Origin: Entoloma clypeatum
Taxonomy: Eukaryota; Basidiomycota; Agaricomycetes; Agaricales; Entolomataceae
Assembly: GCA_963565915.1 (NCBI GenBank)
Contig: OY751488.1
Coordinates: forward strand, 3,100,001 to 3,164,000
Length of the DNA: 64,000 nucleotides
Reading direction: 5' to 3'
Part shown: one piece after another, positions 3,655 through 63,900 of the stretch
How positions within the stretch are numbered: position 1 is the first letter of the stretch
Layout of the letters: each line of letters starts with the position of its first letter
Notes under the pieces: generated by a model
The model's database searches: none
Told to the model about the DNA's origin: nothing
Seen by the model: only the letters and a program-made list of their open reading frames with translations
Translations under genes and position numbers: made by a program

Positions 3655-3963
3655 TGTTGAAACTTTTCCCATCACGTAGATTAGATTAGATTAGATTACA
3701 TCACGTGACCTTTACATATCTTCATTACATACTTGTTTGGTTGGTACAAACAGTAGTACGGTATATAAGACCAGGAAACTGTCAATATCAACAAGTTGTC
3801 TCTTGACTCTTAACCAGCTCCATCGCTCTTACCAGCCTCAACCGCTCTCACCAGCCTTACCCCTCCAAACCATGTAAGTGACCATAGCGGTATTGTAGAG
3901 TACTTCCACTGTAGCTATGTTGCTCAGTACACCTGTGGCTAGCGCCCAGGTGGAACTTCAACA
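3655..3963 (+). repeat. Copia element 5' LTR, 309 bp
   Basis: Starts TGTTGAAACTT and ends AACTTCAACA, with the inverted ends TGTTGAA/TTCAACA. It contains four AGATT repeats, a CACGTG E-box and a TATATAA box (around 3762) followed by a pyrimidine-rich start region. By eye it is identical over all 309 bases to the right LTR at 9131-9439. Confidence 0.97.
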
Positions 3964-4325: not shown

Positions 4326-7300
4326 ATGTCTACCTCTCGTTCTGCCCTCGACACAATCACTGCCTTTGACGGCATCGACTACCGGAGCTGGGCCGAGAAA
4401 ATGAAGTCCTACCTCCTCCATCAAGGAGTCTGGCGCCTTGTTTCTGGCGACATCCCCCGCCCTGTCATCGCCGACTTCACCACCACAGTCTCCACCCCTG
4501 GGGCCACTGCTACTGCTCCCCCTGTGCTGGCCACCACGGTCGACCAGCCCGGCTTCCGCAAGGAAGAAAAAGCCTGGATCAGGGACGACAACGTAGCTCT
4601 TGGGGCGATACGCCTGAAGGTCTCCGAGGCGATCAGACGCCACATCAAGGACGCCACTTCCTCGAAAGATGCCTGGAAGTCATTAAAGGATGCCTACTCC
4701 AAGGTATCCCCGGCTGTCATCTTCGGCGACTTCAAGGCCGCCGCCACCTACAAGCTCTCTGGACGCGACCCCGTCCCCGAAATCGAACGCCTGGGGTCTC
4801 TTTTCGCTCGGCTCGCCGATTCGAACTTTGACGTCCCCGATCTAATGCAGGCAATGATCCTGGCAAATGCAATTCCCGACGCCTGGTCGTCACTGTCCAC
4901 CGCCCTCTTCCAGGTCTATGACGCCGACGATTTCACCTACAAGGCCGTCGCCGAAAGCATCATATCAGAGTACCGACGCAAGTATTCGATTGGGTCCACT
5001 CGTACGTCCAACGAGCAGGCCCAGAAAATTTCCGGGACAAAGCGAAAGGGGCAGGACCCCAAATGGGAAAGGCAACAGAAGCCGAGTACCTCGCAGAACG
5101 ATGCTGACGAGCAGCCTAACTCGACCGACCATAGTACCGCTTCTGAAAAGAAGAAGGGAAAAGGACGATGGCGCAATCAGAAGAAAAACGCCAACACTGC
5201 GGACAACGTGTCCGACCATGTGGAAGAAACGGTTGAGTTCGTTGCTCCCGCCATCCACTTCCCTCCTCTTCCGACACCGTCCTTCACAACCGTCACTGGT
5301 CGCGGGAAAACGACAAGTACCGCCCAGCCCGATTCCACAAATATGCAGTCGCTCCTGCAGCGTATGAACCCCCCTCCGTCACAGTACACCGGGCTTCCTT
5401 CTGGAAAACCATCTGTGTGGAAAAAGAACGACCATGTCCGCAAACTCGCGCGCGGCATTGGTGCTCGCCCCTCAGGATCGAATCTTCGTATCCTAGACAC
5501 CATCATTCCTGACATCGACGAAAGGCCGGCTAAACAGCGTCGCGTAGCCCCGTCGATAGAAGAATCACTGAAAATGATGGACATAGACCATCAAAGCGAG
5601 CGGATGGGGCCGGAACAATTCGAAGACGGGCTGATCGAACTTGACGGTTCGTCACATTCTTCTCTCAAACTTGACCAAATGGGAAATGCTAATAATCACG
5701 CACAGACGTTTGAATATATATTAGCTAGTACCGATGCAGATAGTATAGATCTCTTTAGCGATGATCTGTACAAAAAATATACCAAACATTTTGCGTCCTG
5801 CACACACTGCAAAGAGAAAGAACGCGCTCAGTGGATCTTAGATTCCGGCGCATCATTACACTTTACCCATGAGTTCAAAGACTTCGCGTATTACAGGCCT
5901 CTCAAGGCTAAGCGATTTGTCCAAACAGCTGCAAAGGGAAAGAAACTGGAAATTCTCGGAGTTGGGGCCGTTCCAGTACGGCATACCCTGAATGGGGAAA
6001 CTAAAACCCATCTCCTACGACCGGTATTTTATATTCCGGATATGGACACACATCTATTGTCCCTAGGCGTCTTCCTTAACCATGGTTACAAAGTTGATGG
6101 AATGCGCGGAGAAATTAATATCTCTAAAGGGCTGAACAAAATACAGTTTTCGCCTCATTTCATCGGACAAACCATTTACTGGTTAGACACTGAAATACGC
6201 TATGACCAAATCCACGCAATCTCTAGCGAAATCACTGTTGAAACCTGGCATAAACGTCTTGGCCACCCAAATGACCAGGCGCTTAATAAAATTCCCACTA
6301 GTACCAAAGGAGTACCCAGGACGTTAGTACGTGAGAAATCACAGGAAAACTGCACGGGGTGTCTAAAAGGGAAAATGCCGAATCAATCTTATCCTAACTC
6401 AATGACAAGGGCTGTCAAACCCTTTGATTTGATCCATTCGGATTTGAAGCAGATATCCACAGCATCGTACCATAAGTACAAATATTTCCTTACCTTTTTG
6501 GACGATTTTTCCTCCCATGTCTGGGTCGTCTTGCTTAGGAAGAAGTCAGGCGCCATCACGGCGCTGAAACAATTCCTTGCGATGATCCAGAATCAATTTG
6601 CCGCTACCCCTAAAAAGTGGCGGGTTGATGGAGGTGGAGAATTTGACGAATACAAGGATGTACTTGCCGATCATGGAATTCTGATCGATATCACGCTCCC
6701 ATATCAGCACCAGCAGAATGGTAGAGCAGAAAGGATCAATCGAACACTATGGGAAAAATCTCAGGCATTGCGCTTCGATGCATGCTTACCGCCCATGTGG
6801 TGGGAATTCTGTTTGGAACACGCAGCATTTCTCTACAACAGAACCCCCATGCAGCGTCTTGAATGGAAAACCCCTTACTTCAGGGTGACCAATGAGATCC
6901 CCGACATGTCTAGTGTCAGAGTATTTGGATGTCAGGCATATGTATATATCCCAAAAGAGAAACGTAGGAACTCCCTGGAATCAAGATCCCGATTGATGAT
7001 TTATCTCGGATCGAAACCAGGTGTCAAAGGATACCGCTTCATGGATCCTGAGACCAACACGATTTTCATGGGCGGGAAAGCTATCTTTGATGAAAGCAAG
7101 TACCCTAGATGCCACATTGACCCGTTGCCAGAAAACCACCCAGAAATGGAAAACCCAGAGCCGGCTGATGAGTTTGAGGATCTCATTCCCGGCAGCAATG
7201 ATGACGATAGTCACAACGAAACACCTCATATCCCAGTTCCCATTGAACAGGATCAACCTGAATCAGACAACGAACTGCCTGCCAGTGAGCCTGATGACGA

Positions 7301-9053
7301 ACCGCGAGTACCCACTCCGGAACCCGAGCAAGTACCAGATCGACCGATCAGGGAACGACGAGTTCGGAAGATGCCAGGAAGCATCTATGGGGAAGACACT
7401 CCAGCGTCTGATCTTGAAAAATTAGATCGAAGACGGAGATTGGGCGGTCAAACGGCATGGATGAATGACCTCCTGATGGAGGCAATATCAGTCCAAGTTG
7501 GCATCGTTGAAATGTCCCATAAAGACATATACCCTCTTCCAAATAAAGAAGACTGGTATGCGGCTGAACGTAAAGAGCTAGACATGCTCAAACGCCGCGG
7601 GGTGATCACGGAGCTAGTACCCCTGCCTGCAGGGAGGAAAGCTCTAAGGAACAAATGGGTTTACAACGAAAAGTCCGACGGGCGTCTGAAAGCGCGCCTC
7701 GTCGCAAAAGGCTTCTCACAGGTAGAAGGGATCGACTTCGATCAGATCTTCTCACCAGTCGTAAGATATGAAACCGTCCGATTAATACTGGCATTGACAG
7801 CCCTTGAAGGGTGGTTCATGACTCTTTTGGACGTCTCATCAGCCTTCCTCTATGGAACGCTCCGTGAAGTCATTTACATGCGACAGCCTGAGGGCTACAT
7901 AGTAAAAGGGAAAGAACACCTTGTGTACCAACTATTCAAAGCTCTATATGGACTTAAGCAGGCCGCATTAGCCTGGTGGAGGGAACTTGATTCCTCCATG
8001 AAAAAGCTCGGATTTGTCCGGCTTCACTCCGATGCGGGAGTGTTCATTCACAAAAGTACCAACGGGGAAATTGTAATCGCCGTCATCTATGTCGACGACT
8101 CTGCTTTTCTCGGCACAAACCGGGAATATACGCTAGAAAAGAAGAAGGCCTTCATGACAACATGGGAATGCAGGGACCTAGGTCACCTAGTGCCCGATGG
8201 GGAACCAAAGGAATTTCTCTCAATCCAAATAAGGCAACGTGGGAAGAGGATCTTCATTGATCAAGTACCTTACCTTGAGAAAATTCTGGCACGCATGGGG
8301 ATGAGCGAATCTAACGCCACCCATACCCCACTCCCTACAGGCTACAAACCCATGGCGTCCGAAGATGAACCCAATGCGGAACTCCGATCCAAGTACCAAT
8401 CCGTCATCGGATCACTCCTATATCTGATGATTGGAACGAGGCCTGACATCTGCTTTGCTGTAATCAAAATGTCCCAATTTTCCGTGAATCCCACAAAACG
8501 CCATTTAGAGGTGGCTAGGGATATTTGCAGATATTTAAAGGCAACAAAAAATTACGCAATAATGTATGATGGGGACTCAGGGAAAGGGATCTATGCATTC
8601 ACAGACTCCGACTGGGCGTCAGATGAGAACACGAGGAGGTCTACCACCGGCTTCTTCATATCACTGGCGTCTGGAGCGATAACATGGGTATCATCGGCGC
8701 AAAAAACCATCGCCCTCTCTTCTACAGAAGCAGAGTATATGGCGCTATCAGATTGCAGTCGCGCAGCAACATGGCTGAGAAGCATGCTTGCCGAACTTGG
8801 AATGCAGATCGGATCAGTACCGATCTATGGAGATAACAACGGCTCTGTCTTTATCGCATCCAACCCTGTGACTGAGAAGCGATCCAAGCACATTGACGTG
8901 CGATTCCACTTCGTCAGAGAAAAAGTCTCCGAAGGAATAATTACGGTCGAATTCATTGAAGGAGTGAACAACCCTGCAGATCTTTTAACTAAGAATCTGG
9001 GGAAAATCCTCTTTTCCAAGTTTATCCCGTACTTCGGATTGATAAAAAACTAG
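4326..9053 (+). CDS. Ty1/copia Gag-Pol polyprotein, intact, 1575 aa
   Basis: A single uninterrupted ORF encodes all enzymes needed for transposition in copia order. Residues 1-300 are a Gag-like region with a basic tail but no CCHC knuckle. The protease has DSGASLHFT (Asp 506). A GAG-pre-integrase HHCC module (WHKRLGHP...CTGCLKGK) leads to the integrase with D706, D768 and E802. The reverse transcriptase contains YVDD at 1255-1258, and RNase H starts at TDSDW (Asp 1427) with STEAEY and GDNNG. It ends with a short tail before the 3' LTR. Gag and Pol share one frame, so no frameshift is needed. Integrity plus matching LTRs suggests a recently active copy. Plus- and minus-strand ORFs inside it are shadows. 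Confidence 0.98.
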   Translation: MSTSRSALDTITAFDGIDYRSWAEKMKSYLLHQGVWRLVSGDIPRPVIADFTTTVSTPGATATAPPVLATTVDQPGFRKEEKAWIRDDNVALGAIRLKVSEAIRRHIKDATSSKDAWKSLKDAYSKVSPAVIFGDFKAAATYKLSGRDPVPEIERLGSLFARLADSNFDVPDLMQAMILANAIPDAWSSLSTALFQVYDADDFTYKAVAESIISEYRRKYSIGSTRTSNEQAQKISGTKRKGQDPKWERQQKPSTSQNDADEQPNSTDHSTASEKKKGKGRWRNQKKNANTADNVSDHVEETVEFVAPAIHFPPLPTPSFTTVTGRGKTTSTAQPDSTNMQSLLQRMNPPPSQYTGLPSGKPSVWKKNDHVRKLARGIGARPSGSNLRILDTIIPDIDERPAKQRRVAPSIEESLKMMDIDHQSERMGPEQFEDGLIELDGSSHSSLKLDQMGNANNHAQTFEYILASTDADSIDLFSDDLYKKYTKHFASCTHCKEKERAQWILDSGASLHFTHEFKDFAYYRPLKAKRFVQTAAKGKKLEILGVGAVPVRHTLNGETKTHLLRPVFYIPDMDTHLLSLGVFLNHGYKVDGMRGEINISKGLNKIQFSPHFIGQTIYWLDTEIRYDQIHAISSEITVETWHKRLGHPNDQALNKIPTSTKGVPRTLVREKSQENCTGCLKGKMPNQSYPNSMTRAVKPFDLIHSDLKQISTASYHKYKYFLTFLDDFSSHVWVVLLRKKSGAITALKQFLAMIQNQFAATPKKWRVDGGGEFDEYKDVLADHGILIDITLPYQHQQNGRAERINRTLWEKSQALRFDACLPPMWWEFCLEHAAFLYNRTPMQRLEWKTPYFRVTNEIPDMSSVRVFGCQAYVYIPKEKRRNSLESRSRLMIYLGSKPGVKGYRFMDPETNTIFMGGKAIFDESKYPRCHIDPLPENHPEMENPEPADEFEDLIPGSNDDDSHNETPHIPVPIEQDQPESDNELPASEPDDEPRVPTPEPEQVPDRPIRERRVRKMPGSIYGEDTPASDLEKLDRRRRLGGQTAWMNDLLMEAISVQVGIVEMSHKDIYPLPNKEDWYAAERKELDMLKRRGVITELVPLPAGRKALRNKWVYNEKSDGRLKARLVAKGFSQVEGIDFDQIFSPVVRYETVRLILALTALEGWFMTLLDVSSAFLYGTLREVIYMRQPEGYIVKGKEHLVYQLFKALYGLKQAALAWWRELDSSMKKLGFVRLHSDAGVFIHKSTNGEIVIAVIYVDDSAFLGTNREYTLEKKKAFMTTWECRDLGHLVPDGEPKEFLSIQIRQRGKRIFIDQVPYLEKILARMGMSESNATHTPLPTGYKPMASEDEPNAELRSKYQSVIGSLLYLMIGTRPDICFAVIKMSQFSVNPTKRHLEVARDICRYLKATKNYAIMYDGDSGKGIYAFTDSDWASDENTRRSTTGFFISLASGAITWVSSAQKTIALSSTEAEYMALSDCSRAATWLRSMLAELGMQIGSVPIYGDNNGSVFIASNPVTEKRSKHIDVRFHFVREKVSEGIITVEFIEGVNNPADLLTKNLGKILFSKFIPYFGLIKN

Positions 9054-9130: not shown

Positions 9131-9439
9131 TGTTGAAACTTTTCCCATCACGTAGATTAGATTAGATTAGATTACATCACGTGACCTTTACATATCTTCA
9201 TTACATACTTGTTTGGTTGGTACAAACAGTAGTACGGTATATAAGACCAGGAAACTGTCAATATCAACAAGTTGTCTCTTGACTCTTAACCAGCTCCATC
9301 GCTCTTACCAGCCTCAACCGCTCTCACCAGCCTTACCCCTCCAAACCATGTAAGTGACCATAGCGGTATTGTAGAGTACTTCCACTGTAGCTATGTTGCT
9401 CAGTACACCTGTGGCTAGCGCCCAGGTGGAACTTCAACA
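9131..9439 (+). repeat. Copia element 3' LTR, 309 bp
   Basis: Same ends and length as the 5' LTR at 3655-3963 and no difference found on reading both base by base. Followed by CTTTC (9440-9444), the second copy of the target duplication. Confidence 0.97.
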
Positions 9440-51387: not shown

Positions 51388-54300
51388 ATGGCCTCTGCCC
51401 GCCTCTTCAAGCTCACTAAGCACCTTGACGCTGTTGTACACGGCCGCCTCCCCGTCACTTCCCACAATGCCAGTCTCTTTCTCGAGGCCATCTCTGTCCA
51501 GCAAGATCGCCCTTCCTGTATCAACAAGCTTATCGCCAGCAAGTGCGGCCTTGATGCCGTCCAGGCAGCGATGCGATGTAACATCACCCCTGACTTTCTC
51601 AATGGCCCAGCCGCCTCTTTCTTGTCTTATCTGCGGGCACCAGATCTGAAGGATGTCGCCGGTGGACTCTTCCTGGATGAAATTGTGATGAGAATTGTGG
51701 ACCCGCCCATTTTCTGGGATGCCTTTTCCCTCTCTTTTACCAGAGGCCTGCTTTCGAACGATGCACAAGTTTGCTTCGCATGGCTGCTCCACCATCTTGT
51801 CTCCTTACCTGCCTCTACCTCGAACGCATATCGCAATCAGGCCTGCACTCTTGTGAGCGTGCTTCAGACTTCACCTGAAACCGCTGTCAGGAACCTTGGT
51901 CAGAGGATTGACCATGTCCTTTCCACCCGCAACGCCGCGGTCACGCCGACCAGCAACGCCCGTGATGGTCCTGGTGGCCGTCACGATAACGATCATACCG
52001 ACTTCCGTGACATTGCCATCCTCCCGACCTCTGAAGAAATCAAGTCAAGAGAACCACCTTTTTTGAGGCCCAGTGACGCCTTAGACGACCCCAGCACAGA
52101 ACACATGCGTCTTTCCCTGCACCTCGACAACCAGTTTCGGCTATTGCGCGAGGATATGCTATATGAGATGCGTGAGGAGTTGGAGATTGCATTTGGGAAA
52201 AAAAAGGGTAATCACAGAGGGCTAGTTTTGAATGGGCTGACTCCACTCGATATATATTGTGGACCCGACAACAAACGCTGCAAATGGGGTGTCACGCTAC
52301 GTTGCAACGACGATCTCCCACAGCTCAAGAATGCCAAGGATCGGAGAAAGTTTCTGAATGACAACCGCAATCTCCTCCGTCACCAATCTTTAACCTGCTT
52401 GATGGTGGACGGGGAAATTCTGGCCTTTCCCACCATCAATCGCGATGAAGAACTCCTTGCACGGAAGCCCTCCGTGGTAGTGCTGCAGTTCGAAGGAGAG
52501 GTATCGACGTCAAAGGTTCTCCTCAAGCTCAAGACCGCTAAAGCAATCAAGCTTATTCAGATTGACACGGCCGTCTTCTCGTATGCACCTGTTCTCAGCG
52601 CGCTTCAGCACATCACATCTATGCCACTTTCCCCCGAGCTCTTCCTTTGGAAGGACGACGATACCAGCACAGAAACCATATTCCAGCCATCAGTCATCGT
52701 CCAGGCTCTTCGAAAGAACCCAAAATGTGACCTGAAAGATATACTCAAGACGTCCAAAACCATCAGACTGGACCAATCGCAGGCCGATTCTCTCATTTCA
52801 GGACTGACTCAGAGAGTATCTTTGATTCAAGGCCCGCCCGGTAGGTTCTTTGAACCGTCACTTGTCCGATTACTCAGATCAATATTTCTTATCAGGCACC
52901 GGCAAGTCATTCATTGGCGCACTCATTGCCAAATCCATACATGATTTCACACATTTGACTATTATGGTCGTTTGCTATACCAATCATGCACTTGACGATA
53001 TCCTCACAGGGCTTCTTGACATAGGGATTCCTTCAGATAGTATGGTGCGGCTCGGCGGGAAGTCTACCTCACGCACGGAGGCGATGACTATGCAGAAGCA
53101 GAAATCGACATTCAGACGAGATAAAGCCGCTTGGGCTGTCATTGATCGACTCAAATCGGCAGCTGAAACTTTCCGTGAGGATCTGGAGGAAAAGTTCAGC
53201 AGTTATTTACAATCAAACGTGGCAGCGAAGGACATTTTGGACCACCTAGAATTCGAAAGCTCCGAGTTTTTTGAAGCCTTTCGAGTTCCTCAGACTGAAG
53301 ATGGTTCCACACTGGTTGGTGTGGGAGGTAAAGCTGTGACTGAGTTTTATCTCTTGCAGCAATGGGAAAGGGGCCATCATGCAGGTATCTTCAGAAATGA
53401 GCCAAATGTCGAGCAAGCATCACATATCTGGACAATGCGTCTCCCAGATCGACGGGAACAGCTTGATAAATGGAGGAATGCGATTTTGCAGGAACAAGTG
53501 GACGACATGTATGCCGTCGCATCAAAATATAACAGTTTTCAAGATCAACTTGCTCGCCAATGGGCTGAAAAGGATACGGAAATTCTTCGGAGCAAGCGCA
53601 TCATTGGATGTACTACGACCGCAGCGGCAAAGTATAGCGATAGTATTCAAAGTGCGTCTCCGGACGTTCTCCTTGTTGAAGAGGCAGGGGAAATTCTTGA
53701 AAGTCATGTCCTCACTGCTCTCGGCTCCAAGACATCGCAGCTTGTCATGATAGGTGATCACAAGTGAGTACATGGAAACTTCAAATATTGGGGGTCATAC
53801 CAAGATGGATTTCAGGCAACTGCGGCCAAAAGTGAATCATTACAAGCTTACAGTCGAAAAAGGGGATGGATATGATCTGAATAGGTCTCTTTTTGAACGC
53901 CTCATCATTAAAGGGTATCCTCACGAGAAGCTCACCCAACAACACCGGATGCGCCCGGAGATTTCTGAACTTGTTCGTGCGCTAACATACCCGGAACTTG
54001 TCGACGCTCCGAAAACCCAGGGCCGCGCCAATCTCCGCGGCGTGCAGGATAATATCGTCTTCATCAGCCATGACCATCCGGAGGATAATTCCCTACAGCT
54101 TGCTGATCGCCGGGATGGCGAATCGACATCTTCGAAACAAAACTCCTATGAAGTACAAATGGTTCTCAAAATATTGCGCTATCTTGCACAACAGGGATAC
54201 GGAACTGACACGGTTGTCATTCTGACACCATATCTTGGTCAGCTTCAGAAACTGCAATCTGCACTGAAGCAGGACAACGATCCCATTCTTAATGATCTCG

Positions 54301-57300
54301 ACTCCTTCGACCTGGTTCGTGCTGGGCTCCTATCACCAGTGGAAGCGAAAATGTCCAAGAAGCCTATCCGCCTTGCGACGATAGGTTCGTCCATCCGTTT
54401 ACCACCAATGATCATGGCAACTTCATTTTGACATCGAAAACGCAGATAACTACCAGGGCGAAGAAAGTGACATTGTGATCATCTCTCTCACTCGAAGCAA
54501 CCCTCAAAATGACATTGGCTTCATGTTTTCGCCTGAACGTCTGAATGTGCTCCTGTCACGGGCCCGCAATGCCTTGATTATGATTGGCAATGCGAAAACT
54601 TTTATGAATTCACGAAAGGGTGGAGAGCTTTGGAGACATCTGTTCGATCTGCTTAGGAAGGGAAAACATATCTATGAAGGAATGCCGGTGCAATGCGACA
54701 GGCATAATGATCGAAAAGCCCTTCTCAGAAGACCTGAAGATTTTGATTTACAGTGCCCTGATGGTGGCTGCATGGAACCATGGCGAGTGATATTTTCAGT
54801 CTGTATTTCGAGTTTTTCATGATACATATTCCGATAATTGCTAGTGGTACAATGCTCAAGTGCGGTCAGCACCCGTGTCTGTCCAAGTGCCATCAAATCT
54901 CCGACCATTCAAAAATGTTATGCTTGCATATTCTCCTATCGTCCTGTCCGAACGGACATGAACAGTCGTGGAAATGCTGTCAAGGGGGCCCAATAACCTG
55001 CAAAAAATGCGAACATGCAGCTAAAGCCGCCGCAGAAAAGAGCAGAAAAGATTTCGAACTTCAACAGAAGAAGGACGCTGACCAACTTGCTCACAAGCAG
55101 GCCATAGATGCATTGAACGGGGAGATCGCCAAACAGGAACAAATCGTCAAGGATGCATCTCTGGCGGAAGAAAGGGCGAATGCTCTGCGGTCGAAGGAAA
55201 AGGACCTGGTTGCCGCCAAAGCTCGAGCTACCCAAGCTCAAGATGCAGATACATCAGCGAACCCCACCAAGGTCTCCCCAGCAGCAGCACCTCAAAAAGG
55301 CGTTTTCGATTACCTTTCCACTACATTTGGCATGACTCGGATGATGTCAGGTGGCAATCGAGACCCTTCCCCGGATGTGGCGTCCTCCGATACACTACAC
55401 ACAGGTGAGAAAATCTCTCCTTTGGCCAATCTTCCCTCCTGAACTATTGTAGGATCCGACAACACAATCCGCGCAACGCCGGTATCAAAAAAAATTGACA
55501 AGACCTTCCCGCCGATAGCGCCCTCCCCATCGCAGATGGAGTGGCAGCGCCAAAAGGTTATACATGGCGCAGAAAATGAGGCGATTGATGTTATCATGGC
55601 CATGATTGGCCTAGAAACAGTCAAAAGCCAGGTCCTCGCGATAAAGGACACTATTGATACAAGGCAACGTCAAGGTGCATCTTTCAAGCACGAACGCTTG
55701 AATCTCGTTTTACTCGGGAATCCCGGAACTGGTGAGTAGCGCCAGATGGAAGATGATGATTGCCTAGGACTTGAACATTGTTTGTTAGGAAAAACGACAG
55801 TTGCCCGCCATTATGCAAAGTTTTTAACATCACTCCAGGTTCTTCCTGGAAACGCTTTTGTGGAAACCACAGGCTCTCGGCTCGCCAATGACGGCGTTCC
55901 AGGAATCAAGAAAATTGTGGAGGAAACTGTCAAAGCTGGAGGAGGAGCGATCTTCATCGACGAGGCGTATCAACTCACGAGTGAACACAACTTCCAAGGG
56001 AAACAAGTGCTTGACTTTCTCCTTGCTGAGATGGAAAACAATACTGGTGTTCTCGTCTTCATCTTGGCAGGCTATAACAAGGAGATGGAGAAGTTTTTTG
56101 AACATAACCCCGGTCTGCAAAGCAGAGTCCCGTACAAACTTCAGTTCGACGACTACAGCGATAGCGAGTTCCTCGCTATGTTCGAGAAAATAGTCGAGAA
56201 AAGATATGCAGCAAGGATGAAAATGCAACTAGGGCCCAGTGGTTTATATGTACGCATCGCTATCCGGCGCCTTGGCAGAGGTCGAGGGAAGGAGGGATTC
56301 GGAAATGCGCGGCAATTGGAAAATATGCTCAGCCAGATCTTTCGACGTCAGGCAAAACGTCTCACCGAGGAACGTCGACGTCGCCAGTACCCCGATGACT
56401 TTCTTCTCACCAAAGAGGACTTAATAGGAACGGACCCCTCCAAGGCAATATTACAATGCGAAGCATGGACCGAGCTGCAAAAGATGATTGGGCTGCAGTC
56501 AGTGAAGGAAGCTGTCCAGACTCTCATCGACTCCACAACGGAAAATTATCACCGTGAATTGGAGGAATGCAAACCCCTTGAGATGTCATTAAATCGTACA
56601 TTTCTTGGCTCTCCCGGCACAGGAAAGACCACAGTGGCCAAGCTCTATGGCAAAATACTAGCAGATCTAGGGCTGATCAGTAACGGCGAAGGTAAATATC
56701 GTCGGAATCTGCAGTTATCAGGGCCACTTACACACGCTCATTGCAGTCGTGACGAAAAATCCAGCAGATTTTATCGGCTCTGTCCTTGGCGAATCGGAGA
56801 GAAAGACAAAGGCCATCTTAGCCTCTACAATAGGGAAGGTTCTCATCATTGACGAGGTTGGTACCCATATATGAATTTCGATTGAGTGCCTTTGAACCGC
56901 GAACTGTATACAGGCGTACATGTTGTACGGAGGGGGCGCCGCCAGCGGTTCTGGGAACACGAGTGACATCTATAAGACCGCCGTCATCGATACTATCGTA
57001 GCAGAAGTGCAGAGCGTACCGGGAGAAGACCGATGTGTGCTGCTACTTGGGTATAAAGAACAAATGACTGAAATGTTCCAAGTGAGTGTATTACTGCACA
57101 CCTTGGACGATCCCTCTTATCTTTGTATCAAGAATGTCAACCCGGGACTTACGCGACGTTTTGCCATTGAAGATGCATTTAATTTTGAGGACTTCGATAA
57201 TGCCCAACTATTGCAGATTCTCGACATGAAACTAAAGAGCCAGGACCTGTCTGCGACGAACGAAGCCAAAGCCACAGCCATTCAAGTGTTGGATCGCGCC

Positions 57301-58949
57301 AGGAATCGCCCAAACTTTGGAAATGGTGGGGAAGTTGAGAACATTCTCCGCCAAGCCAAAACCCGCTATATGCGACGAACAAAAGTTTCTCGTGGGCCGC
57401 GCAAATTCGTCTTTGATTCACAGGACTTCGATCCCGACTTTGATCGTGATGCACATGCGTCCGACAACCTTGCTAGGCTCTTCAAGGATGTCGTGGGTTG
57501 TGAGGAAGTTGTGAAGAGGCTGGAAAGCTATCAACATCTTGCTCGCGCGATGAAAACCCGGAATATGGATCCTCGCGAAGAAATCCCGACTAATTTTGTT
57601 TTCAAAGGGCCTCCAGGTACGTTCCATCTACAAATCAAGATGAGATCAACTAAGCAGCCATCAAATTAGGCACAGGGAAGACAACGATCGCCCGCAAAAT
57701 GGGAGAAGTGTATTACGACCTGGGATTCCTAAATACGAAGGAAATTATAGAATGCTCCGCGTCTGACCTCGTCGGGCAATATGTTGGCCACACTGGTCCC
57801 AAAACCAAGAAACTTTTGGAGAAAGCCCTTGGACGAGTACTTTTTGTTGATGAGGCATACAGGTTGGCCGAGGGCCGTTTTGCTCAGGAGGCTATGGACG
57901 AGTTGGTTGGCCTTTTGACCCAAGAGAAATTCAAATCGAAACTCATTGTCATCCTTGCCGGGTACGACCAAGATATGAACAAGCTGATGGCAGTCAATTC
58001 TGGTCTTGCAAGTCGGTTCCCCGAGCACATCCAATTCAGAAACATGGAGCCGTCCCGCTGCCTGGAGTTGCTACACAAAGAGTTGACCAAGAAGAAGATC
58101 CTGGTGCAGGAACTAGAATCTCCCTCCTGCAAATCCTACATCCAAATGAAGGAGCTCATCGAAGAACTATCCACTCTGCCATCATGGGGAAATGCACGAG
58201 ACATATTGACGCTTTCGAAAACAATGATAAAAAAGGCTTTTTTAGCAGATGCCGATGCGCCACCAGGTGTCGTGATGATATTTCCGGTGGATGCTGCGAT
58301 AGCTTGCATCGAGGAGATGCTGAAGGAACAGCAGGAGAGATGCACCAATGTACCCAGGACAACTCGGACAGCATCCGACCCATTGCAACGCACCTCAACA
58401 CCCCCGCGGCCATCTCCACCAAATATCCAGATAGCACCGCCGGAGATGAAGAAATCCGTGCCAAATCCGCCGAGAACGACAATGAATCCGGCCGTGCCTT
58501 CCGATGGGCGTGATCCTGGAGTAACGGATGCGGTGTGGAACGAGCTTCAAGCTGCAAAGAAAAGAGAGGAGCAGCAGGCACAGAAGGGCAAGGGGACGGC
58601 AAAGAAACTCCAACGTGATATCAACCAAGTAAGAGAAGCTCTTCGCCAGCAAGAACGCATAGTTCAAGAGCTTGCGCGAGCTGTCGCAAAGGACCAAGCA
58701 GAAAGGGAGGAACTGAAACGTAAACGAGAGGCTGCACGCCTCAAGGATCTCGAAGCCCGGCGACGGGCCGCTCAACTTGAAGGGATACGACGACGCAAAG
58801 AGGAAGAAAAGAAGAAGGAAGAAAGGAACCAAGCTGCCTTGCAGAGGATGGGGGTCTGTGTGGCAGGTTATCAATGGATAAATATGGGCTCGGGCTACCG
58901 TTGTGCGGGTGGAAGCCATTTTATTTCTAACGCGCAATTACCCTCTTGA
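51388..58949 (+). CDS. Giant NFX1/ZNFX1-like SF1 helicase fused to three CbxX-type AAA+ ATPases
   Basis: About 2,300 aa by eye after removing some ten introns. Residues 1-450: helical N-terminus without known motif. Then the SF1 helicase: Walker A QGPPGTGKSF, CYTNHALDDIL, LLVEEAGEI, GDHKQLRP (across an intron), QQHRMRPEI, DNYQGEESDIVIISLTRS and LLSRARNALIMIGN. An NFX1-type zinc finger follows (CGQHPCLSKCHQISDHSKMLC near 54855), then a Lys/Glu coiled coil. Next are three CbxX/CfxQ AAA+ modules: P-loops near 55720, 56610 and 57610, Walker B IFIDEAYQL, LIIDEAYML and LFVDEAYRL. The C-terminus has a charged coiled coil and the Cys/His tail YRCAGGSH. Likely an RNA-linked remodeller; ZNFX1 relatives act in small-RNA inheritance and antiviral sensing. 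Confidence 0.9.
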
Positions 58950-58959
58950 TAGATTACTA

Positions 58960-59368
58960 TTACACAGCCGGCAGGGCACATTGCGCGGTGTTCTCCCATC
59001 TCGCACAAATAAGCGCAAATTAATTGGGAAATAGGCTGCGCGTCGGGATCACACCTGAATGAGTAATTAGATTGTGTATTTGTCTGGGAGGCTGTCGCAC
59101 AGCAAATCCCACAAATAAATCATTTGTCTTGTTTTCCCTTTTGACTGTGTTTTTTTTTGGCAGGTGTTGCCATAGCAACAACGCGCAACCAAAAGAAAAA
59201 ATCGCAAAACAGGTCAATTGTGCAATTTGCTGTGCGACAGCCTCCCAGACAAATACACAATCTAATTACTCATTCAGGTGTGATCCCGACACGCAGCCTA
59301 TTTCCCAATTAATTTGCGCTTATTTGTGCGAGATGGCTGCCGCGCAATGTCCCCTGCCAGCTGTGTTA
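58960..59368. mobile_element. Palindromic Harbinger-type (Tourist-like) MITE, 403 bp
   Basis: Element 58963-59365, flanked by TTA on both sides (58960-58962 and 59366-59368), the 3-bp duplication of PIF/Harbinger elements. The outer ends match as CACAGC-Y-GGCAGGG...CATTGCGCGG. Inside, arms 58996-59107 and 59225-59338 are inverted copies differing only by one base and one CA unit, about 112 bp each, separated by a 117-bp spacer. There is no coding capacity. It lies 13 bp after the stop of the helicase-AAA gene, so it is almost certainly inside that gene's 3' UTR or terminator. Confidence 0.9.
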
Positions 59369-59508
59369 CATGTTTATGAGTGACTCGGAGGGGCAAACAA
59401 AACTTTTCCAAACGCGGTTATGTAAATTTCCCTGTACTTTCGTAAAAAGGTTTGTGGGTCGGTGCTTCCTTACCACCGCCCATTTCCATCTTTCGGACAG
59501 TCTAGCAC

Positions 59509-60766
59509 ATGGTCGAGGAGATAGATTATGAGGCGCTACCAGCAAACGCAGGCTTCGCGGTGTGTTTATACCCTGTCTCTTTATTACCAGTTCCGAACGT
59601 GCACCCTTTCCATGTAGGTGAACATGCTGGCCGGTGCACTGGTGCGTTAACGATGTAGCTCTGGCTATGACACCGCCTTGACGAGTTGTATTGGGATTTG
59701 TAGGCAGGCATATCCGAGCATGCGGTCATGTACCCTGTGGATAGTATCAAAGTGAGCTTTCTGTTTGCTGAGGCATTCTGAGTGCTCATTATCATCCATA
59801 CGAATTCTAGACCCGAATGCAAGTCTTCGCGACGTCCCCTGTGGCAGTTTATAGTGGAGTCGGGAATGCCTTCAGCCGAATATCATCGACAGAGGGATTA
59901 AGAGCCCTTTGGAGGGGGGTGTCCTCCGTTGTCCTTGGAGCTGGTCCGGCTCATGCGGTGCATTTCGGGACCTTAGAGGCCGTGAAGGAGCTTGCAGGAG
60001 GTAATGAGGCTGGTAATCAATGGGTGGCAACGTGTGAGCTGCAGATCTCTTTGCCCTTGATTCTGACCCTTTATTCACCTTGTTCCTCGCTATATAGCAC
60101 TAGCTGGTGCTTCAGCGACTATTGCAAGCGATGCTCTGATGAATCCCTTTGATGGTATGTTGGCTCCACTTCAATCGTTGGGTTTTTATCCTCATCGACA
60201 ACACCTATTGCTTATCATAGTCATCAAGCAAAGAATGCAAGTACACCAATCTGAGTTCCGATCTGTCTTCACCTGTGCTCGGGTGGTATACCTCAATGAG
60301 GGGCTTGGAGCCTTTTACGTCTCTTACCCGACGACTTTGGCCATCTCAATCCCGTTTAACGCGATACAGTTTACTGTGTATGAACAAATGAAACGATTCT
60401 TGAACCCCACACACCAATACTCGCCGACAACGCATATAATGTCCGGGGCTGTCGCGGGTGCCATAGCGGCTGCAGTTACGACACCACTAGATGTTGCCAA
60501 GACGATTCTTCAGACGCGCGGTACATCTGCTGATCCAGACATACGAAATGTCAAGGGAATGACGGATGCTTTCCGGGTTATCTGGCAGAGAGACGGTGTC
60601 AAGGGATTCGGCCGAGGTCTGGCACCACGCGTATTAACAATTATGCCCAGCACAGCCCTCTGCTGGCTCTCATATGAGTTTTTCAGTAAGTCCCATTACT
60701 ATCGGAGTGGTATCCTCAACGTAACCTTGCTGCTTCCTTGCAGAGGCTGCAATCCGGGCGGACTAA
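59509..60766 (+). CDS. MRS4: Mitochondrial iron transporter mitoferrin (MRS3/4)
   Basis: Three mitochondrial-carrier repeats, each with the P-x-D/E-x-x-K/R signature: MYPVDSIKTRMQ (first repeat), MNPFDVIKQRMQ (second, after splicing) and TTPLDVAKTILQ (third). The start MVEEIDYEALP and the phrase GPAHAVHFGTLEAVKE fit the mitoferrin group, which imports iron into the matrix for heme and Fe-S cluster synthesis. Six to seven short introns. It ends KAAIRAD at TAA 60764-60766. Minus-strand ORFs here are shadows. Confidence 0.93.
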
Positions 60767-60952
60767 TGCCAATAGGGTTCATGAGGACATACTCACCGTT
60801 CAGTCAGGCTCTAATATTAGTACTTTTCATCGCAATGCCAGTGCTACTTACGCAGATACATACTCATAAGCAGTAAATTTACATGTGACGTCATAGTACT
60901 ATGGTTCATCGAAATCATCCCTCGACTTATCGTTGTCTGACTACCATCATCC

Positions 60953-63900
60953 ATGATGGCGAAAGGTAGTTACCAATCATCCAGCAAGCCAAAACCTTCA
61001 CTTTCCATCTCTAAGCGCCCAACATCGCCCTCAACTTGCTCCAACTCTAGTCCGATAACACCGAAAACCCCTGCGGATGAAGGCCTAGAGTTTTTCCAAT
61101 CGCCAAGTCACCCAGGAGAGGCTCCGATCCAGGTGTACGAGCTTCGCCTTGACGTTGATGGCGGACCCCGCAAGGACAGTTCAGTGCGTAGTTTTTCAAC
61201 AAACTATACTACCTCTGATGAGTCCAACACGTAGTATATTCGTCTTCCGCCAGCATACGTGCCTTATATTTTACGTGTTTCCATTGAAGCTGGTACGCCG
61301 GCTGCGAAGAATGGTCTGTTCATCACCAATTTCCCTCTTGATGGGGGTGTGTTCTCCCGAGATCGTTTCGCAAAGAGAAAGTATGTTGCCTTGCTACGGA
61401 ACGCGCATATATCCCGCTTATCACCCTCGTCTATCCTTCAGATTGCCTACCGACTACTCTAAACCGATTCAAGTGGATCTGCCCATCTCACATGCTGGTG
61501 CTTTCGTGTACTGGGTCGAATACGACGGGGTTTCTGGCGAAAGGATCAAAGGTCGCGAAGGGTACTTCAACATTGATCCGATTCTTAAAATCAAGGCTCG
61601 GTCACATATACTGCATCCCGAAACCTTGAAGGCATTATCGCCTGGCCAAGGTGGCGCCGTCATCAGTAAAGACGAGTATGTCAAGTTACCTCTGAATGGT
61701 CTGGCCATCTTGACTCTCGTCTCGAAATGGATGGGGCCGATCTCTGAATGGCGGAAGCATTTAGAAGAGGCTTCCCAAAGAGGCTACAACATGGTGCATT
61801 GGACACCTCTTCAGGAGCGTGGCCAAAGTGGAAGCCCTTACTCCATTCGAGATCAGATGCGATATGATCCTAGTCTTGGATCCGACCCCTCCTGCGTCGA
61901 TGGTATCCTCAAAATCGCCAAAGAAGATTACGGTCTACTTTCCCTTACAGACGTTGTTCTCAATCATACTGCAAACGACAGTCCCTGGCTCTTCGAACAT
62001 CCAGAAGCTGGTGCGTCCATTTTCACAGTTGTTTTAGTTGGCTCACAACTTCGACATCTGCGAACTCAGGTTACAGTCCCGCGAATACCCCTGGTCTGAC
62101 CCCTGCACTAGAACTTGATTCTGCCATCATAGATTTTTCTGGGTCCCTCACAGAGAAAGGCCTTCCATCGTCAGTTTCCTCTGAGGCAGATGTAGAAACT
62201 CTCGTTTCTGCATTCCATGATTTCATCAAAGGCCTTGACCTGTGGCAGTACTACGTCATCGACACTGCCTATCAAAGGGTTTCCGTCAAGGATGCAATCG
62301 TTTCCGGAAAGTATAGACCTTGGGCTGGTCCTGAGGTTAAAGGAAAGACTGTCGTAGAACTCTCAAAGATCATCCGGTCGCAGGGAAAAATCAACGAACT
62401 GGATTCATTGGCAGCTAGATTTTGTGTCAATATCGATGCTGGCATCGCTGCAGCAATCACAACAGCCGCATTCGCTGAATTGACAAACCCAGACGCTTTA
62501 GCAGATGCTTGGGTCAAGGTGGTTGACGTCATTAATGTGCCACTCTACCAAGAATGGGAAACGGATACGAGAGTGGCTCTTCAAAATATCAAGAATCGTG
62601 TGAGGTATACCAGGTTAGATCAGAATGGCCCTAAGCTAGGGGAAATCACAAAAACGTATGTCTCCTTCTTATCGTCCGGAATCGTGGCTTCCCCTCTTTA
62701 CCAAGGAATCCACTCGTCGAGTCGTATTTCACTCGGCTGCTCTCAGCCACAACGGCAGATCCCTTGGTATACTCATTGGCGAATAATGGTTGGATCTGGG
62801 ATGCTAATCCTCTGCAAAACTTCGCCCTTCCTCCTTCAAAAGCATATCTCCGTCGTGAGGTTATTGTCTGGGGTGATTGCGTCAAGCTACGTTATGGCTC
62901 GACCCCTTCCGAGAACCCATGGTTATGGGCTCATATGACTTCTTATGTGACATCTCTTGCTCGTACCTTTGACGGCTTCCGAATCGACAACTGTCATTCC
63001 ACCCCATTGGAAGTAGGGACAGTCATGCTCGATGCCGCCCGCGCTATGAACCCAAATCTGTATGTTTGCGCCGAATTGTTTACTGGAAGCGAAGAAATGG
63101 ACCTTGTATTTGTGAGGGAGTTGGGAGTGAACAGCTTGATTAGGGAGAGCGGTAACGCCCCTGACCCCAAGGAATTCTCGAGATTGATTTACAGACATGG
63201 CGTTGGGAAACCCATCGGTTCGTAATTCCACCCCGCTCGCCGAAAAGTATCAATGTTTCCCACTTGACACAGGTTCCATGGATGCCGTGTGCTTGACGAG
63301 CATCGAGGAGCTTCCTTCACCCACTGGCAAGGGCCCTATCCGTACTTGTGCCGTCAGTCCCCTTACCGGTTGTCTACCTCATGCACTCTTTTACGACCTC
63401 ACTCATGATAATGAGTCTCCTCTTGACAAGCGTTCTGCGGAAGACGCTCTTTCTACAGGAGCCCTCGTCACTTTTAGTTGCAGCGCCATTGGTTCAGTGA
63501 AGGGATTCGATGATTTGTATCCAAAACTTCTTAATTTGGTGAAAGAGCAACGGCTATATGACGTGACTGGGCTCGGGAGGCAGAGCGGAATTGCAAAGGT
63601 GAAAAGAGTTTTGAACTCTCTGCACGTAGAGATGATGCTCGATGGATTCGAGGAAGGGCACGTACATCAAGAAAATGATGTACGTTGGTTTTAAATCTCT
63701 CGCTCATTCGTTTGGTTGATTTTGATCATGTGGCAGTACATCGTCGTTCACCGCGTGCAGCCAGCCACGCAAAAGGGGTATTTATTGATCGCACATACAG
63801 CATTTTCCAACGGTCCAAAGGACCGCGGTTTCAGTGAGTGCTCTTCTCTCGATGAAAAAGATCTCGACAAATCGGCTTTATCCTTTTTCGCCAGTAAACC

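Follow-up and report, generated by a model that had tools for sequence, protein, structure and literature searches.

A ZNFX1-type helicase joined to three CbxX-type AAA+ modules in one predicted fungal protein

Does one gene of the fungus Entoloma clypeatum join a helicase to three AAA+ modules in a single chain, and what might such a protein do? The question is raised by a locus in a 64,000-nucleotide stretch of contig OY751488.1 (positions 3,100,001 to 3,164,000), here called the window; coordinates are counted from its first base unless another contig is named. The host genome comprises 60 Mb in 20 contigs. From ATG through stop, the coding region occupies 51388-58949 of the forward strand and consists of 11 exons and 10 introns. 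The spliced product of 7011 nt encodes 2336 amino acids (2336 codons plus the stop). In order, these form an N-terminal domain, a superfamily 1 (SF1) helicase, a Cys/His finger, a linker, three CbxX-type AAA+ modules, a second linker, and a Cys/His tail. A first-pass annotation had proposed one continuous spliced frame at 51388-58949, and frame and coordinates were both right. At the level of the predicted gene, a single frame encoding the helicase and all three AAA+ modules is confirmed.

The introns are short (48-62 nt). On the forward strand they are located at 52841-52895, 53764-53815, 54385-54445, 54783-54844, 55405-55452, 55732-55788, 56692-56746, 56857-56913, 57082-57132, and 57617-57669. 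Nine have GT-AG ends, and the fourth (54783-54844) has GC-AG. Without splicing, the three forward frames of 51388-58949 are closed by 83, 81, and 63 stops. Each junction was examined by comparing length over ±8 residues at the intron in 121 aligned proteins (this one and 120 homologs). Eight of the ten show equal length in 111-119 of the 121. The remaining two are intron 5, in a variable linker (4/121), and intron 8, which adjoins a variable glycine loop (46/121). Intron 5 is thus the least supported, and it is the one on which the helicase-AAA join rests. Its 48 nt are a multiple of three; because the retained intron carries one in-frame stop, the fusion requires its removal.

Could two neighbouring genes have been read as one? 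The weak length agreement at intron 5 would fit such an artefact, as would the need for a GC-AG donor in one intron and the existence of split public models (e.g., Blastosporella C0991_005439 and C0991_005440, 'separate' proteins that resemble one split gene). We regard the artefact as highly improbable. The GC-AG junction creates a Cys codon, and this Cys is present in 118 of the 121 proteins. The same domain order also occurs in one model in 118 of the 120 listed homologs, although annotation pipelines can copy one another.

These homologs come from a search with the full protein in which 7979 candidates were scored, 2177 of them at E ≤ 0.001, and the best 120 listed. The closest is from Hypsizygus marmoreus (67% identity). 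For 119 of these, identity is 51-67%, with some alignments spanning no more than about half the length; the outlier, P0085, has 39% identity over 8%. All seven segments are present in 118, one other protein being without the finger and one without the tail. Because the segment profiles were built from the alignment of those same 120 homologs, this is a check of order and no independent test. From their names, we take the listed homologs to represent many genera of mushrooms and moulds. In a midpoint-rooted FastTree tree of the 121 proteins, the Entoloma protein groups with full support (1.0) with P0001 (Hypsizygus, a member of the Lyophyllaceae), P0003 and P0016 (Tephrocybe rancida), P0004 (Asterophora), and P0012 (Tephrocybe sp.). 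The first-pass belief that related fusions are annotated in fungi is borne out by the 118. By its predicted sequence, the gene is one more member of a fusion family occurring in many fungi, with no difference in kind.

The N-terminal domain, delimited by the alignment, comprises residues 1-455 (51388-52752). Residues 202-410 align weakly with residues 415-613 of ZNFX1 (29 bits). The domain has no Pfam match at E ≤ 1 apart from one sub-threshold chance match, and a PDB search with a profile of residues 1-182 gave chance matches only (E 0.81 and 2). The helicase follows at residues 456-1030 (52753-54645). It is identified by Pfam (AAA_11 and AAA_12), solved structures and conservation, and has the motifs GPPGTGKS, VEEAGE, GDHKQLR, QHRM, NYQGEE, and LLSRAR, the first of which is invariant across the 121 sequences. 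ZNFX1 (9q9z) is its best solved match at 232 bits, followed by NAM7, the yeast UPF1, at 104 bits. Among solved structures the core is nearer to ZNFX1 than to UPF1, SEN1, or Aquarius, in agreement with the earlier assignment to the ZNFX1-type SF1 helicases.

A cluster of Cys and His residues lies at 1067-1131 (54754-55010), split by the GC-AG intron. We take its pattern to be NFX1-like. At most positions, 118-119 of the 121 proteins retain the Cys or His. An NFX1 zinc finger had been annotated here; the conserved Cys/His residues stand, and Pfam zf-NF-X1 finds no match in them. The test is a weak one, since the same model also misses a ZNFX1-like locus of this genome on contig C1.

The three AAA+ modules are all of the CbxX type. 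AAA1 occupies residues 1296-1570 (55551-56432), AAA2 residues 1575-1850 (56445-57435), and AAA3 residues 1855-2110 (57448-58268). Their best PDB matches are CbbX for AAA1 (114.7 bits) and AAA2 (102.5 bits), and EccA1 (116.7 bits) and CbbX (116.3 bits) for AAA3, so the three CbxX/CfxQ modules named at first pass are recovered with CbbX and EccA1 as nearest solved relatives. The Pfam families listed for the protein (25 of 29) include AAA_11 and AAA_12, three stretches of AAA, and two of AAA_lid_6; profile searches, proposed earlier as a check on each domain, thus match the helicase and the AAA modules. The protein does not resemble STAND/NLR receptors: the P-loops fit AAA far better (148 bits) than nSTAND3 (42 bits), and no repeat domain that could act as a sensor occurs among the Pfam families listed.

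Conservation of the ATPase sites is strong. The Walker A Lys and Thr are present in 121 of 121 sequences in all three modules. The Walker B Asp-Glu pair is equally constant in AAA1 and AAA3, and is found in 118 in AAA2 (the other three have gaps). Walker A, Walker B and a putative arginine finger are intact in AAA1, and arginine-finger candidates (a label we assume for these conserved arginines) are conserved in all three. Walker motifs found broken after correct splicing had been named as a sign against the fusion; they are intact. Judged from the alignment, four ATPase sites, one in the helicase and three in the AAA modules, are conserved over the 121 sequences. AAA2 has the highest mean identity of any segment (0.66), and the two linkers fall to 0.24 and 0.29, the lowest values.

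The pore loops are less uniform. The tyrosine in the pore loop of CbbX has a known role, and the AAA3 loop, DLVGQYVGHT, resembles the CbbX loop DLVGQYIGHT. Its pore position is Tyr in 113 of the 121 sequences and Phe in 7. At the corresponding place AAA2 has Val in 57, Ala in 26, His in 24, Tyr in 13, and Phe in 1. AAA1 has no aromatic residue there and instead a conserved stretch of its own, ETTGSRLANDGV. By these predicted loops, the CbbX-like pore tyrosine is retained in AAA3 only, and the three modules are unequal.

What could such a chain do? The reading we prefer, with a probability of about 0.4, is an RNA-targeted AAA+ remodeller, in which the helicase would bring a threading motor to proteins located on particular RNAs. 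The helicase would bind selected RNA and move along it, and the chain would oligomerise via its CbxX modules, as CbbX does. AAA3, the sole module with the canonical pore tyrosine, would thread or pull a protein substrate, and AAA1 and AAA2 may serve as assembly or regulatory modules. The outcome would be a protein stripped or unfolded on its RNA, for example in a viral or transposon ribonucleoprotein (RNP) or an RNA-silencing complex. A role of the fusion in defence is a plausible conjecture. If RNA does control the AAA motor, recognition of RNA would be linked directly to protein unfolding, in an RNA-response protein distinct from both RNA interference (RNAi) and ZNFX1.

The C-terminus has a part in a rival reading. 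A K/E/R-rich segment, possibly a coiled coil, spans residues 2225-2303 (58611-58847) and is followed by the tail, residues 2304-2336 (58848-58946), with the pattern C-x2-G-Y-x-W ... G-Y-R-C-x-G-G-x-H. A Cys/His tail had been annotated at first pass, and it is indeed conserved: the first Cys is found in 119, the Trp in 116, the second Cys in 117, and the His in 116 of the 121 sequences. It has no Pfam match, and a PDB profile search yields one chance match (E 1.5). An RZ finger was considered for the tail and rejected; the C-terminal 228 residues contain no RZ match, and PF20173 is found elsewhere in the genome. In this rival, the protein might be a signalling switch, in which RNA sensing by the helicase leads the trio to oligomerise and recruit partners via the tail, with no pulling. 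Absence of a pore aromatic from AAA1 and mostly from AAA2, with ATPase sites kept, is consistent with a switch. So is the conservation of the tail, which is also matched in six listed paralogs without an AAA match (in two of them weakly) and is weakly similar to the tail of another gene of the same genome. Two points argue the other way: AAA3 keeps its loop with the tyrosine or phenylalanine, and the Pfam families listed include neither an effector domain nor a sensor repeat. We consider the switch doubtful.

The other gene with a similar tail is located on contig C10, where two identical 3099-base stretches (~2468751 and ~2477075) lie about 8.3 kb apart. Each encodes a K/E-rich protein with a tail weakly like that of the fusion (36% identity, E 0.011). 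The identical stretches could be a duplication or an effect of assembly.

Paralogs in other fungi bear on how tightly helicase and trio are coupled. Eleven species among the 120 have two members each, the pair probably on one contig (picked by eye); examples are four Armillaria species, Mycena, and Crassisporium. Some public gene models appear to be without the trio. P0243 of Armillaria ostoyae is 88.6% identical to the fusion P0024 over residues 1-1305 and resumes at 2224. P0251 of Suillus shows 84.9% identity with P0100 over 1-1301, followed by a stretch that starts at 2381 (41%). Two Amanita muscaria proteins, P0262 and the fusion P0104, share 84.0% identity over 1-1210, after which P0262 picks up at 2192 (60%). 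The trio is skipped after residue ~1300 in Armillaria and Suillus, and after ~1210 in Amanita. In three further public models from Desarmillaria and Armillaria (P0260, P0263, and P0269), with the same helicase half, an MA3 match is found at the place of the trio. Their scores are 34.8, 27.4, and 19.4 bits against a cut-off of 23.2, so that P0269 falls below it. In a second tree, P0243 pairs with the fusion P0055 (support 0.64) and P0262 with P0104 (1.0), and the two Suillus forms fall together. The MA3 forms make up one clade (1.0) adjoining thirteen Armillaria-group sequences (0.987).

Only the three aligned cases and the MA3 group are relied on for loss of the trio. By a 40%-coverage rule, 68 of 120 proteins in a further list of relatives are without an AAA module; they are not used, many of them ending at an apparent exon edge. 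In another list of 120, which had raised the idea of a free-standing trio family, 117 are without the helicase segment by the same rule. No such family is claimed because 27 of the 120 carry a finger match without the helicase, many others start inside AAA1, and some models are split.

From these models the fusion seems plastic across the family, with the trio missing or replaced by MA3 in some paralogs. A gene predictor reading the trio as an intron would produce identical trio-less models. The covalent coupling of helicase and AAA part asserted at first pass thus holds in this gene; it is not obligate across the family if the trio-less and MA3 models are right. Such paralogs suggest a helicase that serves as the chassis for targeting and a C-terminus that can be exchanged as the output. 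Taken further, this might describe a modular fungal RNA-sensing system with a logic like that of immune receptors: a constant helicase would recognise RNA that is foreign or aberrant, and the response would come from a C-terminus open to exchange (the CbxX motor trio, an MA3 domain, or the Cys/His tail alone). Repeated duplication, together with loss of the trio and domain swap, would be the trace of an antiviral or anti-transposon system still evolving beside RNAi and canonical ZNFX1. This extension is unlikely enough to be offered as speculation. Paralogs seemingly without the trio, or with MA3 in its place, provide natural controls.

In its own genome, the trio as query gave six matches among the best candidates scored; five fall in this gene, and the remaining one is weak (E 8e-4). 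The helicase as query gave nine, of which four belong to this gene and the rest have 34-50% identity. Both AAA_lid_6 matches in the genome lie within this gene.

Is the fusion, then, this fungus's ZNFX1? Probably not. One of the other helicase loci, on the reverse strand of contig C1 (2364775-2373136), is ZNFX1-like: its P-loop frame and QGEE motif are accompanied by CCCH fingers, by NFX1-like patterns, and by an RZ finger. It is likely one gene. Both genome matches to the RZ finger (PF20173) fall at 2364775-2364974, the end of this locus. The best solved match of its helicase frame is ZNFX1, at 48 bits over part of the helicase. Because a comparable helicase stretch of the fusion scores 87 bits against ZNFX1, the C1 locus is likened to ZNFX1 by its domain layout and not by similarity. 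The genome also has matches to RNAi genes, with Piwi at 9 places, RdRP at 4, and Dicer_dimer at 3; these allow a link to defence without showing one.

Several observations weigh against the remodeller. The two downstream neighbours that were checked lend no gene-context support to defence, and the fusion is present as one copy in this genome among the best candidates scored. The full GxPGxGK[ST] motif occurs four times in 107 of the 121 sequences and three times in the other 14, which means that some models have an altered site. Should the trio-less models be correct, the helicase would be able to work without the trio. Tandem CbxX arrays in bacteria occur without a helicase match in the flanks retrieved (0 of the best 80 loci), and therefore an AAA array need not act on RNA.

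A second rival is a housekeeping function with no special part in defence. The protein would serve in RNP quality control, remodelling cellular messenger RNPs or stalled translation complexes. The spread of homologs over many genera of mushrooms and moulds (groups again assumed from names) and the strong constraint on the ATPase sites fit such a function. UPF1 and Aquarius are among the closest solved helicases after ZNFX1, and the MA3 of the Armillaria forms is presumably a translation-factor domain. Duplicates within eleven species, together with loss or swap of the trio, would be unusual for an essential machine. Housekeeping is possible, if on the unlikely side. For the RNA-targeted remodeller, as for its rivals, the interest of the family lies in a protein of about 2300 residues, present in many mushrooms and moulds, which joins two well-known machines and has four conserved ATPase sites.

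An inverted repeat of about 405 bp (58962-59366) begins 12 bases 3' of the stop, with arms 82% alike. Related copies are found in the genome (15 candidates scored, 32 matching rows listed), and the repeat looks like a miniature inverted-repeat transposable element. For the stretch 58950-59400 the computed folding energy is -297.9 kcal/mol (z -30; 0 of 100 shuffles), a very stable hairpin. If co-transcribed with the gene, the repeat would form a long hairpin. The downstream neighbours, at 60139-62099, are frames for a mitochondrial carrier and a glycogen debranching enzyme. Far upstream, a Copia-type LTR-retrotransposon frame is open over 1575 amino acids (4326-9053), and an identical short tandem repeat unit flanks it at 3807-3857 and 9283-9333. 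A Ty3-type capsid-like frame on the reverse strand (381-1538) has a zinc-knuckle match just under the cut-off. An Rfam scan of the 64-kb window gave no match at gathering scores.

How does the fusion compare with known systems? Among the paper titles listed by literature searches, none describes a helicase-AAA+ fusion, and among the matches listed the fusion is seen only in proteins with fungal names or without names. Its AAA half is closest to CbbX/CfxQ, SpoVK, and EccA, which it resembles in the nearest PDB matches of the three modules and in AAA_lid_6. For the homologs P0001 and P0127, the NCBIfam model spore_V_K passes its cut-off, and the models for CbbX and EccA stay under theirs (scores summed over three stretches). 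The fusion differs from these proteins in having three unequal modules in one chain with a helicase, and one pore tyrosine. Three or more CbxX matches in one frame are also a feature of bacteria. A prokaryote scan gave at least 592 stretches, 473 of them encoding a relative; among the best 80 loci, which were kept, 48 open frames have three or more matches. In contrast to the fusion, the 80 loci, several of which end at contig ends, give no match to the helicase, the finger, the N-terminal domain, or the tail at E ≤ 1e-5. Pore-loop counts for the bacterial tandem proteins are left aside, since the pattern behind them was crude and overlooked most loops. A scan of viral contigs gave at least 31 loci with CbxX-like matches.

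The helicase half has other parallels. It shares with ZNFX1, ZNFX-1, and Hrr1 the helicase core, along with the weak N-terminal alignment to ZNFX1. Human ZNFX1 is described as having an ARM fold, six NFX1 fingers, and an RZ finger (PMC11959080); the fusion differs in having one Cys/His cluster, three added AAA+ modules, and no RZ finger found. In Caenorhabditis elegans, ZNFX-1 is described as sustaining small-RNA amplification, and Hrr1 as its orthologue in Schizosaccharomyces pombe (PMC9276528). The RNAi factor Znf3 of Cryptococcus was considered as a relative and dropped, its description mentioning three zinc fingers, a coiled coil, and a putative RNase, and no helicase (PMC4778953). A further parallel is MkoA, the helicase of the Mokosh defence system. 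The helicase region of the homolog P0001 (the protein with which this search was run) matches PADLOC MkoA at 243 bits; the fusion differs in having the AAA+ trio and no PLD nuclease domain among the Pfam families listed. Mokosh proteins are described as having domain homology in common with the piRNA pathway (PMC11291487). By analogy, the parallels with ZNFX1, Hrr1, and Mokosh make a role in RNA defence a reasonable reading, at most, of the helicase half.

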